From an uncultured Lachnospiraceae bacterium (GTDB taxonomy: Bacteria; Bacillota; Clostridia; Lachnospirales; Lachnospiraceae): a stretch of DNA of 64,000 nt. Location of the stretch: assembly GCA_949948715.1 (NCBI GenBank), contig CATLGW010000003.1, forward strand, positions 1-64,000, read 5' to 3'. The position numbers were made by a program, and so were the translations under genes. Positions 2,298-8,008 of the stretch are shown in pieces. The first letter of the stretch is position 1, and each line of letters opens with the position of its first letter. A model generated the notes under the pieces. The model was not told where the DNA came from and made no database searches. It was given only the letters and a program-made list of their open reading frames with translations.

Positions 2298-3458
2298 ATG
2301 CAGGAGGAATTGCTGCAACTGTTTCCCATAGAGAGACGAGCCTTCTGGAGCCGGGTGGCCGCCCAGGCCGATGATGTGGAGGAGATCAGGCTTAGGGCGG
2401 ACAGGCCGGTGTTTGTGAGGATGGCGGGGCGGGAATGGTATCTGGACAGGCAGGGGGAATTGACCTCCCGGGCGGGAGGCGCGTACTGTGCGGGAGAGGG
2501 GGAGCTGGAGGAGCTGTTGCTGCACATCTGCAATTATTCTCTTTACGCTTTTGAGGACGAGCTCAAACAGGGATTTATCACCGTCTCCGGAGGGCACCGG
2601 GTAGGCCTGGCGGGCCAGGCGGTGTTAAATGCGGACGGAAGCATCCGGACCATGAAACACATTTATTATATGAATATACGCGTCTCCCATGAAATCAGAG
2701 GGGCCGCCGATCTGGTACTGCCCTATCTGTACCGGGAGGGCATGGTGAAGAATACGCTGATCCTCTCGCCGCCGGGGTGCGGCAAGACCACGCTGCTTCG
2801 GGACCTGGTGCGGCAGATCTCCGACGGAAGTGTCCACGGAAGGGGCCTTTGTGTGGGGCTGGTGGATGAGCGGTCGGAGATAGCGGGATCTTATCTCGGG
2901 AAGCCGCAGAATGACGTGGGTATGCGGACGGATGTGCTGGACGCCTGTCCCAAGGCGCTGGGCATGAGTCTGCTGCTTCGCTCCATGGCTCCCCAGGTGA
3001 TTGCGGTGGACGAATTGGGAGGCGAGGCGGATATGGAGGCTCTCCATATGGCGGCCTCCTGCGGCTGCAGTCTCCTGGCTACGGCCCACGGGGAGGGGAT
3101 AGAGGATGTGGCGGCGAAGCTTGGAGAGAGCAGATTTGTCAGGGAAGGACTGTTCGAGCTTTGCGTCATTCTGGGCAGAAGGGCCGGAAAACCTACCCTG
3201 CTGCGGGTCTGTGAGAAGGAGGAGATCTATGCTTCGCTTGTTGGGAAGCGCCATGATATTGGCGGGGACTTTCGGATTGGGCATATGGTACGGAGAACAG
3301 TTCCGGCGGCGGATCCAGGCTCTCAGACGTCTGGGGGAGGTGTTGGAGATGCTGATGAGCGAGGTGCGCTACAAAAGGGCCACGCTGCCGGAATGCTGCA
3401 GACATGTGGCGGAACGTGCGCCGGAGCCGCTGGCGGGCTGTCTGAAGGGCATCTATGA
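2298..3458 (+). CDS. spoIIIAA: Stage III sporulation protein AA, ATPase of the SpoIIIA channel
   Basis: Secretion-superfamily ATPase thought to power assembly of the SpoIIIA-SpoIIQ channel joining mother cell and forespore. Walker A is LSPPGCGKTTLLRD and Walker B is VIAVDELGG. The start chosen is the ATG after ggaggtgagaga; the ORF track start 48 codons earlier has no such support. From this start the protein is 386 residues, whereas family members are usually near 310-330. The recognisable domain ends about VILGRRAGKPTLLRVC. The last ~77 residues are low-complexity and lie wholly inside spoIIIAB in another frame (230-base overlap). The extension therefore looks like read-through after loss of the ancestral stop, unless a sequencing error is involved. 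Confidence 0.93.
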   Translation: MQEELLQLFPIERRAFWSRVAAQADDVEEIRLRADRPVFVRMAGREWYLDRQGELTSRAGGAYCAGEGELEELLLHICNYSLYAFEDELKQGFITVSGGHRVGLAGQAVLNADGSIRTMKHIYYMNIRVSHEIRGAADLVLPYLYREGMVKNTLILSPPGCGKTTLLRDLVRQISDGSVHGRGLCVGLVDERSEIAGSYLGKPQNDVGMRTDVLDACPKALGMSLLLRSMAPQVIAVDELGGEADMEALHMAASCGCSLLATAHGEGIEDVAAKLGESRFVREGLFELCVILGRRAGKPTLLRVCEKEEIYASLVGKRHDIGGDFRIGHMVRRTVPAADPGSQTSGGGVGDADERGALQKGHAAGMLQTCGGTCAGAAGGLSEGHL

Positions 3459-3747
3459 GGAGATGTGCGGCAATACGGGGAGAAAATTCGGAGAAATCTT
3501 TGCGGAGGGAATGGGGCGCTGTCTTTCTGCCCTTCCCATATGTCCGTCAGATGCGGACATTTTCCTTCGTTTTGCAAAGCAGAGCGGATTTGCGGAGGGA
3601 GAGATGCAGTTGAAATGGATGGAGGAAAGCAGAGAGCGGCTGGCCCACAGGGTGGAGGAGCTGGAGGCTGAGCTTGCGGGCAGGAGCCGGGTAGCCGTAA
3701 GCCTGGGGGCCATGAGCGGTCTGCTGTTGGTGATTTTGTTGTGGTGA
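3229..3747 (+). CDS. spoIIIAB: Stage III sporulation protein AB
   Basis: A 172-residue protein of normal length for the family. It has a hydrophobic N-terminal segment (MLRLLGSAMILAGTFGLGIWYG) followed by a helical domain and a C-terminal hydrophobic stretch (GAMSGLLLVILLW). The ATG follows gaaggaggagatct; the upstream start in the ORF track is a shadow within spoIIIAA. SpoIIIAB is a mother-cell membrane component of the channel with a fold related to GspF-type secretion proteins. The first 230 bases are shared with the 3' extension of spoIIIAA. Confidence 0.93.
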   Translation: MLRLLGSAMILAGTFGLGIWYGEQFRRRIQALRRLGEVLEMLMSEVRYKRATLPECCRHVAERAPEPLAGCLKGIYEEMCGNTGRKFGEIFAEGMGRCLSALPICPSDADIFLRFAKQSGFAEGEMQLKWMEESRERLAHRVEELEAELAGRSRVAVSLGAMSGLLLVILLW

Positions 3748-3783: not shown

Positions 3784-3978
3784 ATGGAAGTGAGTTTGAT
3801 TTTTAAAATAGCGGCGGTAGGGATTCTGGTCACCGTGCTGAGTCAGGTACTGAAGCACAGCGGCAGGGAGGAGCATTCCTTTCTGGTGAGCCTGGCGGGA
3901 CTGATATTGGTGCTGACCTGGATTGTGCCGTACATATATGATTTGTTCCAGACGATCCAGGCCTTGTTTGCCATTTGA
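3784..3978 (+). CDS. spoIIIAC: Stage III sporulation protein AC
   Basis: A 64-residue, two-helix membrane protein starting MEVSLIFKIAAVGILV, typical in length and sequence for SpoIIIAC. It has the conserved short linker with basic and acidic residues (LKHSGREEH) and a second membrane segment ending in DLFQTIQALF. It lies third in the operon, 36 bases after spoIIIAB and 18 before spoIIIAD, as in other spore formers. It acts in the outer forespore membrane with SpoIIIAD. Confidence 0.93.
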   Translation: MEVSLIFKIAAVGILVTVLSQVLKHSGREEHSFLVSLAGLILVLTWIVPYIYDLFQTIQALFAI

Positions 3979-3996
3979 CAAAGAGGAGGGGAGCGG

Positions 3997-4383
3997 ATGG
4001 AGGGAATTGTAAAGGTGGGGATCCTGGGGGTGGCGGGAGTGCTCCTGGCGATTCAGTTCAAGCAGCAGAAGCCGGAGTATGGGATGTACATCGGATTTGG
4101 GGTCAGCATATTGATTTTTGGCTTTTGCCTGCGGCAGGTGTCTGCAGTGATGGAGCAGCTTGCTCTGGTAAAGAACTATCTGGGAGGTGCAGAGGGCTAT
4201 CTGTCCACGCTGTTAAAGGTCATCGGCATCACCTACATCTGTGAGTTCAGCGCAAGCGTATGCAAGGACGGGGGATTTGGGGCCGTGGCGGATCAGATCG
4301 AGATCCTGGGTAAGCTCTCTGTGATGTTTGCGGGGCTGCCCATCCTGTTTGCCGTCATCGATCAGATATACGGGCTGGGATAG
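3997..4383 (+). CDS. spoIIIAD: Stage III sporulation protein AD
   Basis: A 128-residue integral membrane protein with four predicted hydrophobic segments, starting MEGIVKVGILGVAGVLLAIQFK, the usual SpoIIIAD pattern. The C-terminal half carries the characteristic GITYICEFSASVCKDGG stretch. The ATG is preceded by aggaggggagcgg. It is a component of the mother-cell side of the feeding-tube apparatus, transcribed with its neighbours. Confidence 0.93.
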   Translation: MEGIVKVGILGVAGVLLAIQFKQQKPEYGMYIGFGVSILIFGFCLRQVSAVMEQLALVKNYLGGAEGYLSTLLKVIGITYICEFSASVCKDGGFGAVADQIEILGKLSVMFAGLPILFAVIDQIYGLG

Positions 4384-4465
4384 CGTGAATAGTATTTTTA
4401 ACCGTTCGCGGCAAGGGGCTGCTTCTAGGAAGGCTTTAGGATAATGTGAGAGGAGGTGAGGCGGT

Positions 4466-5542
4466 GTGCTTTCGGCGGGAATCGTGGAAGTGGAGGATAT
4501 CTGGCAGGAGTACGGACTGGACAGGCTGCGGGAGGGGATGGACGCTCTGTTTCCCAGCTCGGGAGTTTCCCTGGAGGAGCTTTTTTCCCAGGTGATGACA
4601 GGGGATGTGCTGGGGGCCTTCACTCGCTTTTTTCAGGGGAATCTGCAGGGACTTGCAGCTCAGGCCGCCGGGCTTAAGAGCGTTCTGGCCTGGCTGCTGG
4701 TGCTGGGTGTGGTCTCCGCACTGTTGACTCATTTTGTGGAGATCTTTGACAGGCATCAGGTGGCGGATTTAAGTTTTTATTTTCTATACCTTTTGTTTGC
4801 GGCGGTGCTCTTAAAGTGTTTCTCCCAGGCAGCGGGAACGGCTATGGTGGCCATGGAGAATATTGTGCTGTTCGTCAAGCTTCTGGTGCCCACCTATCTG
4901 CTGGCCGTGGGCGCGGCCACCGGGGCCGTCACAGTGGGAGCCTGCTATGAGCTTTTGCTCCTGCTGATCTATGGGGTGGAAAATATCCTGGCGGGGGTGG
5001 TGATGCCGCTTATCTACGGCTATGTGATGCTGGCTGTGGTGAACGGCGTCTGGGCGGAGGAAAAGCTGACGCTGTTGATCGAGCTTCTGGAAAAGGGAGT
5101 GGGATGGATCCTGAAAGCGGCGCTGGGACTGGTGACTGGGGTCAGCATTTTTCAGGCGGCGGTGGGGCCCATGGTGGATTCCCTGCAGGCCACCGCGCTG
5201 CAGAAGGCGGTTTCCGCCCTGCCGGGAGTGGGAAATGCGGCGGACGGGGTGATGGATCTGGTGGTGGGCTCCGCCGTGGTGATCAAAAACAGCGTGGGGG
5301 TTGTCCTGCTGATTCTCCTGCTTACGCTCTGTACGGCGCCCCTTTTAAAGATTTTTCTCATCGCGCTGCTCTTGAAGGGAGCCGCGGCGTTTATGGGGAT
5401 CGTCAGCGATAAGCGCATCACCGCCTGCGCCAATCGGGCGGGCAATGCGGGACTTTTGCTGCTTCGGGTGGCGGGGACGTCCATGCTTTTGTTCCTCATC
5501 TGTCTGGCTGTGGTGGCGGCGTCCACCAACAGAGGCTTTTAG
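4466..5542 (+). CDS. spoIIIAE: Stage III sporulation protein AE, polytopic channel protein
   Basis: A 358-residue protein with an extracytoplasmic-looking N-terminus (about residues 1-65) and then seven or eight membrane segments, matching SpoIIIAE. The GTG start follows aggaggtgaggcg; an in-frame TGA at 4457-4459 blocks any longer version. Family members usually carry an N-terminal signal peptide before the region that here starts IVEVEDIWQEYGL, so this copy appears to lack it. The 82-base gap after spoIIIAD may hold the degenerated signal-peptide region. Otherwise the protein is intact and in operon order. Confidence 0.9.
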   Translation: MLSAGIVEVEDIWQEYGLDRLREGMDALFPSSGVSLEELFSQVMTGDVLGAFTRFFQGNLQGLAAQAAGLKSVLAWLLVLGVVSALLTHFVEIFDRHQVADLSFYFLYLLFAAVLLKCFSQAAGTAMVAMENIVLFVKLLVPTYLLAVGAATGAVTVGACYELLLLLIYGVENILAGVVMPLIYGYVMLAVVNGVWAEEKLTLLIELLEKGVGWILKAALGLVTGVSIFQAAVGPMVDSLQATALQKAVSALPGVGNAADGVMDLVVGSAVVIKNSVGVVLLILLLTLCTAPLLKIFLIALLLKGAAAFMGIVSDKRITACANRAGNAGLLLLRVAGTSMLLFLICLAVVAASTNRGF

Positions 5543-5689
5543 AACCCTCTAAAATTGTCAAGTTTGTTTCTTCACAGCATCTGCCCGGACAGTGCCCGGA
5601 ACAAAGTCCGGCTATGTCTTCCAGACGGACATTGTTCTGCCGGTGGAGGTACTGGAGGGGAAGATGCGGAACTAAAATAGGGAGGATAT

Positions 5690-6223
5690 ATGTGGAGCTT
5701 CTTTTATAAAAGTATCTGCCAGGTGGGGATTTTTATGATTTGCTCTCAGGCCATCATCCACTTTCGGCCCAATCGTTCCTATGAGAAGTATTTGAAGCTT
5801 CTGGTGAGCGTCATGATATTGATTCAGCTTCTGCATCCTGTGGTCAGTTTGATAGGCGGCGCCGGGCGCGGAGATTTTGAGGCCAGGGTGGAGCAGTTCA
5901 GAGAGCAGCTCGCCCAAAGCAGACAGCGGGCGGAAGAGAGCGCGGTCCTGTCTCAGGAGCGGCTGGGAGAACTGACCCTTTCCGAGCTTCGAAAAATCTG
6001 GGGGGAGAGAGAAGAAGGGGCAGTGACGGATGAGACGGGGGGAAGGTCGGAGCCGGAGGGGAGGGGAGAGGCAGGGGGAGAGCCGGAGCCGGATGGGACA
6101 GGAGACACCGAGGAGAAGCAGGAATCGTATGGGACAGGAGAGGCGCAGGGAGACGGGAAGGAGACGGGGGATTCGGTTGCCGTCGAGCCTGTGGAGCAGG
6201 TGGTTCCGGTGAAGATAGAATGA
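5690..6223 (+). CDS. spoIIIAF: Stage III sporulation protein AF
   Basis: A 177-residue protein with two N-terminal membrane helices (QVGIFMICSQAIIHF and LLVSVMILIQLLHPVV) and a soluble C-terminal part, as in SpoIIIAF. The family domain normally forms a ring-building-motif-like fold facing the intermembrane space. Here the C-terminal third (from about residue 110) is a low-complexity run rich in Glu, Gly and Thr rather than a folded domain, which is unusual. ATG after aggaggatat. The 147 bases before it contain no complete gene. Confidence 0.88.
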   Translation: MWSFFYKSICQVGIFMICSQAIIHFRPNRSYEKYLKLLVSVMILIQLLHPVVSLIGGAGRGDFEARVEQFREQLAQSRQRAEESAVLSQERLGELTLSELRKIWGEREEGAVTDETGGRSEPEGRGEAGGEPEPDGTGDTEEKQESYGTGEAQGDGKETGDSVAVEPVEQVVPVKIE

Positions 6224-6254
6224 GTGCTGCGGAAGGGTCTTGAGGAGAGCGAGG

Positions 6255-6896
6255 ATGGGGATAATGGAGAAGTTCAGGCGTTGGCTGGAAGAAAAGGGGT
6301 ATGAGAAGTGGTTTCGAAAGGATAATCTGATTGTTCTGGCATTGGCGGGAGTGCTTTTGTTCATTATCGCGCTGCCTGCAAAGGATGCCAGGGAGGAGCT
6401 GAATGAGGGGATCTTTTCCGGCCTGGGGGAGGGGGAGGGCGTATCCAAACCGGAGAGCGCAAAGGACAAAACCCGGGAGGACGCGGGAAGCCTGTCCCAG
6501 GAGGAATATGCCGATTATCTGGAGGAGAAGCTGGAGGATATCCTGGCGGGAATGGACGGCGTGGGTAAGGTGGAGGTCATGATTACCCTGTCCTCCTCCC
6601 GGGAGCTGGTGCTAGAGAAGGACAGTGATACGGACGGTTCCCAGACCGACGAGGAGGATAACCAGGGGGGCAGCAGGCATATTTCTCAGACCACGCGGCA
6701 GGAAACCACGGTATTTCGAACGGAGGGAAACGTGAGCGAGCCCTATGTGATCAAGACGCTGCTGCCCCGTGTGGAGGGCGTGGTGGTGGTGGCGGAGGGC
6801 GCGGGAAACGGCGTGACGGACAAGAGCATCACCGAGGTGGTACTGACGCTGTTTGACGTGGGGGCCCACAAGGTGAAAGTGGTGAAGATGAAATGA
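6255..6896 (+). CDS. spoIIIAG: Stage III sporulation protein AG, ring-forming channel protein
   Basis: A 213-residue protein with a cytoplasmic N-terminus, one membrane helix (NLIVLALAGVLLFIIALP) and an intermembrane domain. It contains the conserved YADYLEEKLEDILAGMDGVGKVEVMITLSSS segment of the ring-building motif and PRVEGVVVVAEGA in the second half. SpoIIIAG oligomerises into a large ring in the intermembrane space. The start is the ATG after gaggagagcgagg; the ORF track begins at an upstream TTG with weaker support. It lies 67 bases before spoIIIAH. Confidence 0.92.
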   Translation: MGIMEKFRRWLEEKGYEKWFRKDNLIVLALAGVLLFIIALPAKDAREELNEGIFSGLGEGEGVSKPESAKDKTREDAGSLSQEEYADYLEEKLEDILAGMDGVGKVEVMITLSSSRELVLEKDSDTDGSQTDEEDNQGGSRHISQTTRQETTVFRTEGNVSEPYVIKTLLPRVEGVVVVAEGAGNGVTDKSITEVVLTLFDVGAHKVKVVKMK

Positions 6897-6963
6897 AGAC
6901 AGGACATATTTTTTCATACAGGCTCATACAATGAAGTAGGAAAATTCAAAAAGGGAGAAAGTC

Positions 6964-7722
6964 GTGAAAAATCTAATCAAAAAAAATCAGCTTATGATCA
7001 CCGCGCTTGCGATTATGATTGCGATTGCAGGGTATCTACAGTTTGCGGGAACGGATCTCGATGAGGACTACCTGGCGGACGCATCCGGGAATGACACCAG
7101 CGCGGTAAATTCAAACGGGATCATCACAGACAACTACACGGCGGGCGGACTGCAGGAGGCGGCTGGACTGCAGGGAGATGTCGGGCTGGACGGTACATTG
7201 GATCTCTCGGAGGAGGATCTGTTATCCGCCGGACTCACAGACATTGAAAGTCTGGATTCCGACGGGAACATACTTACAGAGGACTATCTGCAGGGCGGCA
7301 TGGATGTGGCCCAGGCTACGCCGGAGGCCGGCGAGGTTCCCGGCGAGGCGGTTTTCACCTCCACGGGAGGCGTGGAGATTCTGTCCGAGGCGAAGCTCTT
7401 GAAGGAGCAGACGAGAGCCAGGAACAGAGAGACTCTGATGGAGGTCATTGACAGCGCGGGACTCACCGACGAACAGAAGCAGGAGGCCGTGGACAGCATG
7501 ATCCGTATGACCGAGATCGCCGAGAAGGAGTCGGCTGCGGAGATCCTGCTGGAGGCAAAGGGATTTTCCGACGTGGTGGTCAGCATCAACGGGGACGCGG
7601 TGGACGTGGTGGTGAACGCTGCGGAGCTCACGGATGTCCAGAGAGCCCAGATTGAGGATATCATCCGGCGAAAGACAGATATCGCGGCGGAAAACATCGT
7701 GATCAGCACCGTGGTTCACTAA
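6964..7722 (+). CDS. spoIIIAH: Stage III sporulation protein AH, partner of SpoIIQ
   Basis: A 252-residue protein with one N-terminal membrane helix (LMITALAIMIAIAGYLQFAG), an acidic linker (residues ~40-130) and a C-terminal ring-building (YscJ/FliF-like) domain. That domain carries RETLMEVIDSAGLTDEQKQEAVDSM and ends with a VVNAAELTDVQRAQIEDI segment. SpoIIIAH in the mother-cell membrane binds SpoIIQ from the forespore; a SpoIIQ-like protein is encoded at 37611. GTG start after aaagggagaaagtc. Last gene of the operon. Confidence 0.93.
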   Translation: MKNLIKKNQLMITALAIMIAIAGYLQFAGTDLDEDYLADASGNDTSAVNSNGIITDNYTAGGLQEAAGLQGDVGLDGTLDLSEEDLLSAGLTDIESLDSDGNILTEDYLQGGMDVAQATPEAGEVPGEAVFTSTGGVEILSEAKLLKEQTRARNRETLMEVIDSAGLTDEQKQEAVDSMIRMTEIAEKESAAEILLEAKGFSDVVVSINGDAVDVVVNAAELTDVQRAQIEDIIRRKTDIAAENIVISTVVH

Positions 7723-7767: not shown

Positions 7768-7880
7768 GGGCAGAGTCAAGTGGGCGAAGAAGCATATGCC
7801 AAGCTTGCTTGAGCATATGCTTTTTCGTCCATTTGACGAGCGTAGCGAACCCGAAAACCGAAGGTTTTCGGGTCTCTGCC
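7768..7880 (+). repeat. Dispersed three-way-junction repeat, copy B
   Basis: Same architecture as the inverted copy at 159-274: outer stem GGGCAGAG/CTCTGCCC, a long imperfect arm (TCAAGTGGGCGAAGAAGCATATGC with its complement), the mini-hairpin GCGTAGC and a perfect 11-bp stem ACCCGAAAACC/GGTTTTCGGGT closed by a GAA loop. Sequence differences from copy A fall on both sides of the stems and keep pairing. The element sits in the deoB 5' leader. Confidence 0.85.
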
Positions 7881-7897
7881 CGTAGTCGTCCGGCGAC

Positions 7898-7948
7898 TCG
7901 GGCAGGGCAAAGGAAGAAATTTTGCTGCCGGTTTCGGCTCTCTGCCCG
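7898..7948 (+). repeat. Small inverted-repeat element with the same termini
   Basis: CGGGCAG pairs with CTGCCCG and encloses a GGCAGggCAAA/TTTGCTGCC hairpin. The string ctctgcccg(t/c)agtcgtcc occurs at the end of the preceding element and again at the end of this one, so the two are related. It lies between the large repeat and the deoB ribosome binding site. Confidence 0.55.
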
Positions 7949-8008
7949 CAGTCGTCCAAAAGCCCGGCAAACACAGTCAGGCTCTTACAATATGCCCGGG
8001 AGGTACAC

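Follow-up and report, generated by a model that had tools for sequence, protein, structure and literature searches.

Long same-strand overlaps in phase 1 that arise when the upstream gene is extended at its 3' end are a described class, and models of codon composition suffice to account for them without selection (Fonseca et al. 2013, PMC3887535; Sabath et al. 2008, PMC2542354). A survey of 338 genomes found no real co-directional overlap longer than 60 bp (Palleja et al. 2008, PMC2478687), and the longest one accepted as real, holD-rimI of Enterobacteria, spans up to 56 bp (PMC2478687). Translational coupling by termination-reinitiation needs a stop near the start, with a separation of ~20 nt almost abolishing it (PMC10666635). 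For the spoIIIA operon itself, Bacillus subtilis does not lose sporulation when SpoIIIAA or SpoIIIAE is reduced 5-10-fold (PMC2703783).

The spoIIIAA-spoIIIAB junction and its operon

We analyzed the spoIIIAA-spoIIIAB junction in a 64,000-nucleotide stretch of DNA from an uncultured Lachnospiraceae bacterium (the window; contig CATLGW010000003.1, positions 1 to 64,000). The features discussed below are as follows.

2298 to 3458, forward strand: spoIIIAA, 386 aa, ATPase of the SpoIIIA-SpoIIQ channel, with its conserved domain at residues 2-306
3216 to 3222, forward strand: Shine-Dalgarno sequence of spoIIIAB, AAGGAGG, inside spoIIIAA and 6 bases before the ATG at 3229
3229 to 3747, forward strand: spoIIIAB, 172 aa, matching PF09548 (E=2.4e-39), its N-terminus aligned across all fetched loci
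3229 to 3458, forward strand: overlap of spoIIIAA and spoIIIAB, 230 nt, with a Gly/Ala/Arg-rich tail as its product in the spoIIIAA frame
3234 to 3236, forward strand: site of the lost 8-nt-overlap stop, spanning spoIIIAB codons 2 and 3; TCG in the window, TAA or TAG in many relatives
3291 to 3293, forward strand: site of the stop that gives a 65-nt overlap in G022; CGG in the window, TAG in G022, by ungapped alignment
3456 to 3458, forward strand: spoIIIAA stop TGA, made by the spoIIIAB codons Tyr-Glu (TAT GAG); the same TATGA is present in G355, G423 and G022
3784 to 7722, forward strand: downstream operon genes, with spoIIIAC at 3784, AD at 3997, AE at 4466, AF at 5690, a gene in the AG position at 6240 and AH at 6964

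The original prediction held that spoIIIAA reads 230 bases into spoIIIAB in another frame and so gains about 77 residues past its conserved domain, and both statements proved correct. Starting at the ATG at 2298, the spoIIIAA frame passes the spoIIIAB ATG at 3229 and meets its first stop, a TGA at 3456-3458, after 386 codons. The Pfam model Spore_III_AA (PF19568) matches residues 2-306 (E=4.6e-100, 335 bits against a cutoff of 27) and TIGR02858 ends at residue 305 (315.4 bits against 281.3), which makes SpoIIIAA a full-length family member above the curated cutoff and leaves ~77-80 residues beyond the domain. The translation contains a Walker A motif, SPPGCGKTT, and a Pfam search of the tail (3229-3458) gave no domain match. 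Relative to spoIIIAA, spoIIIAB is read in the +1 frame (frame offset 1), and each gene matches its own family, as is the case for a phase-1 unidirectional overlap by 3' extension, in which the downstream gene sits at +1 and both genes are real. The TIGR02833 score of spoIIIAB, 87 bits, falls under the cutoff of 146.5.

The operon context of spoIIIAA extends from AA to AH. Pfam models matched AB, AC, AD, AE, AF and AH, and the AG-position gene, which had no Pfam match, was assigned by position. Every downstream frame is open and the operon is in place, and there is thus no hint of a decaying locus.

Three other features of the window lie in or near the operon or at the contig end. In the protein at the SpoIIIAF position, the C-terminal half is long, of low complexity and rich in Glu and Gly (window 6010-6200), and Pfam Spore_III_AF matches residues 21-93 only. 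Between spoIIIAH and the next gene (7775-7957) lies a 25-bp inverted repeat at 7775-7837, 88% complementary with a 13-nt loop, and 3' of it two direct copies of a 26-bp sequence, at 7866 and 7932. The contig begins, at 1-161, with 7 copies of a 23-bp tandem repeat (GGGAAAGCCCCCCGCAACTTACG) that is found nowhere else in the window; this is probably the point where the assembly stopped.

The junction in related species

The source sequence comes from a draft assembly of 54 contigs that is 66.7% complete, and an assembly or sequencing indel near 3215-3240 could have opened the frame artificially, a possibility that the original prediction raised. Comparison with relatives recovered an identical 230-nt overlap, in the same frame, in two further assemblies of the same genus, each from another species: G355 (locus L032, 73% protein identity) and G423 (L036, 66%). 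In the sister species G022 (L002), spoIIIAA stops at an overlap of 65 nt. Across the junctions of the window, G355, G423 and G022 the alignment spans 271 columns with 0 gaps, and spoIIIAA and spoIIIAB both match their families across the junction. Because three species share the 230-nt overlap and the junction is ungapped, an indel is so improbable that it is excluded for practical purposes.

Two of the fetched records are themselves anomalous. L032 (JAMPHU010000041.1) is titled 'Candidatus Gastranaerophilales' in the public record, yet its spoIIIA junction is identical to that of G355, a member of the window's genus, which suggests a wrong title or a mixed bin. In L056 (G331) there is an in-frame TGA at about position 2230, within the conserved part of spoIIIAA, which points to an interrupted gene or to an assembly error at that site.

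We fetched orthologous junctions from 137 distinct loci, of which 133 were usable. Among 90 species sampled from the window's genus (L123 and L124 picked for long open frames, the remaining 88 mainly by match-score order), the overlap was 60 nt or longer in 43 and 190 nt or longer in 17; among 43 species of other genera, 16 of them picked for long open frames, a single one reached 60 nt. The expectation that spoIIIAA and spoIIIAB normally overlap by a few bases holds, mostly, for other genera. Every long overlap in the 133 usable junctions is in the same phase. The lengths recur at discrete values (8, 35, 65, 68, 134, 206, 218, 230 and 248 nt), since each corresponds to a homologous codon junction in spoIIIAB. 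Parsimony on the tree gave ~10 switches between long and short states within the genus, and close relatives can differ in length (65 vs 230 nt). The spoIIIAB start and its Shine-Dalgarno sequence stay fixed across relatives while the spoIIIAA stop shifts; most of them retain AAGGAGG or GGAGG. The original prediction had suggested a recent stop loss. A 3' extension by stop loss is what we find, but its being recent is not supported: the 230-nt state occurs in three species and long overlaps recur genus-wide. Within frame-1 species, overlap length showed no correlation with GC3 (Spearman 0.05-0.07, p>0.5), and we rejected GC content as the driver of overlap length on that ground.

The stops can be read directly from the spoIIIAB codons. 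Where the overlap is 8 nt, spoIIIAA always ends at a triplet that takes its T from the wobble position of spoIIIAB codon 2 and its other two letters from the start of codon 3; this triplet is TAA or TAG, with spoIIIAB typically starting ATG CTT AAG or ATG CTT AGG. In the window, G355 and G423, spoIIIAB opens instead with ATG CTT CGC. As AGG and CGC both encode Arg, the 8-nt stop can vanish without any change to SpoIIIAB. The 65-nt stop of G022 is formed by TAT AGA, and the three 230-nt species avoid it by different codon pairs (TAC GGA, TAT CGG and TAC AGG); all three terminate at the conserved Tyr-Glu pair TAT GAG.

These codon patterns suggest how the overlap may have formed. CTT CGC in the window's lineage would have removed the 8-nt stop and left spoIIIAA open past the spoIIIAB start, and ribosomes would continue out of frame until the spoIIIAB codons give the next stop, TAT GAG at 230 nt. 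The tail would then be translated as a disordered, tolerated C-terminal extension of SpoIIIAA, spoIIIAB would be initiated from its own strong Shine-Dalgarno sequence within spoIIIAA, and tight termination-reinitiation coupling would be lost or unneeded.

Chance, stop depletion and tests for constraint on the tail

We compared the overlap with a codon null in which the spoIIIAB amino acids are fixed and synonymous codons reshuffled, with codon usage taken from 44 long ORFs of the window. Overlaps of at least 230 nt appeared in 4.5% of reshuffles. With the locus's own codon usage, and given an open frame start, the chance of the window's overlap was ~7%; for the 17 long-overlap species, each with its own usage and the early stop already absent, the chance ranged from 2.6% to 30%. 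The 4-7% for the 230-nt length alone counts against a neutral reading. Stops in the spoIIIAA frame are, in general, scarce in this part of spoIIIAB: over codons 4-72, species whose spoIIIAA has stopped earlier carry 0.53 of the expected number. In long-overlap species the figure over the same codons is 0.40 (16 vs 39.5 expected), partly by construction because these species were grouped by the absence of an early stop, and beyond the overlap it is 0.54. Since depletion is similar where no tail is read, the openness of the frame reflects mostly general codon-pair composition, not maintenance of the tail, and we rejected stop avoidance. The 230-nt overlap is long, yet not far beyond chance, particularly given this general out-of-frame stop depletion.

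The original prediction also proposed that the tail might be an overprinted addition to the channel ATPase, and a selected extension could serve, for example, as a tether to SpoIIIAB or the membrane. The recurrence of long overlaps and their persistence across species speak for such a tail, and persistence in several lineages counts against a purely neutral reading. In this register, synonymous changes at third positions of spoIIIAB alter first positions in the spoIIIAA frame, and constraint on the tail would therefore be expected to lower the synonymous rate of spoIIIAB. For the window's clade, where weak constraint may be missed with only 4 sequences, we counted 1.23 synonymous changes per conserved spoIIIAB codon within the overlap, against 1.19 outside it (p=0.60). 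Pairwise synonymous counts between G000 and G355 were likewise not reduced (22/49 vs 29/61), and their tail identity, 0.41, was at the level of a null based on spoIIIAB only (0.39 +/- 0.05). We thus found no purifying selection in the second frame in this clade, of the kind that would mark an overprinted functional tail, and this part of the prediction found no support there.

One separate subclade (L101, L105, L108, L109, L113, L114 and L116; overlaps of 206-218 nt) behaved differently. Its tail conservation had a mean z of 1.5 against 0.3 in short-overlap controls, the pairs not being independent, and its inside/outside synonymous ratio was 0.77 (p=0.11), against 0.85 to 1.43 in clades with little or no tail. 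It is the only subclade that hints at constraint, and its weak excess of conservation counts against the neutral reading. A motif that recurs in the tail, (D/G)ER...G..(G)ML, reflects conserved codons of spoIIIAB, and we rejected it as a feature of the tail itself. In an AlphaFold2 model built from 49 sequences, pLDDT exceeded 85 over most of the domain and fell to ~30 at residues 319-386, where shallow alignment coverage also depresses confidence; the prediction fits an unstructured extension.

With null-level identity, unreduced synonymous change, a motif that mirrors spoIIIAB codons, a disordered model and a length that changes from 65 to 230 nt between close relatives, we regard a selected SpoIIIAA extension as quite unlikely. 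There is similarly little likelihood that the tail is under selection as a young overprinted extension of the ATPase in some long-overlap lineages, most plausibly the 206-218-nt subclade. Instead of a new functional tail or a sequencing error, the overlap looks like drift that has been tolerated: very probably spoIIIAA was passively extended at its 3' end, giving a long phase-1 overlap on the same strand that is neutral, clade-wide and unusually long.

Translational coupling and comparison with described overlaps

A long overlap might also act as a regulatory device that weakens or alters translational coupling between spoIIIAA and spoIIIAB. Because termination-reinitiation needs a stop close to the start (PMC10666635), it is an unlikely mode with the stop 230 nt downstream, and spoIIIAB retains a strong Shine-Dalgarno sequence of its own; both points would suit such a device. 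Equally strong Shine-Dalgarno sequences are, however, frequent in species with an 8-nt overlap, overlap lengths switch between close relatives, and there is no signal for keeping the frame open beyond the general stop depletion. An effect of the long overlap on coupling is possible; that the overlap is a dedicated device we consider distinctly improbable. The tolerance of Bacillus subtilis for reduced SpoIIIAA or SpoIIIAE (PMC2703783) suggests that changes at the junction would be easily accommodated.

The overlap indicates no new mechanism: it is real, unusually long and otherwise ordinary. It shows that long same-strand overlaps, although often discounted as errors of annotation, are sometimes genuine and can recur genus-wide at a key operon junction. 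The naturally graded overlap lengths in the genus could serve to test coupling and the tolerance of C-terminal tails.

The canonical junction in other genera of the family shares the gene order and the internal spoIIIAB Shine-Dalgarno sequence, but usually has a 4-16 nt overlap or a short gap, mostly in another phase, unlike the window. Like the phase-1 overlaps described previously (PMC3887535, PMC2542354), that of spoIIIAA and spoIIIAB is long and on the same strand, the upstream stop has been lost, and its length is set by the next stop in the codons of the downstream gene; unlike them, it is found repeatedly in a large part of a genus, at a single core sporulation junction and with stops at discrete homologous positions. 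It resembles holD-rimI in being co-directional and variable in length among related taxa, although holD-rimI reaches at most 56 bp and the spoIIIAA-spoIIIAB overlaps reach 230-280 nt. This family of overlaps is therefore a counter-example to the 60-bp limit (PMC2478687) in existence, though not in function.
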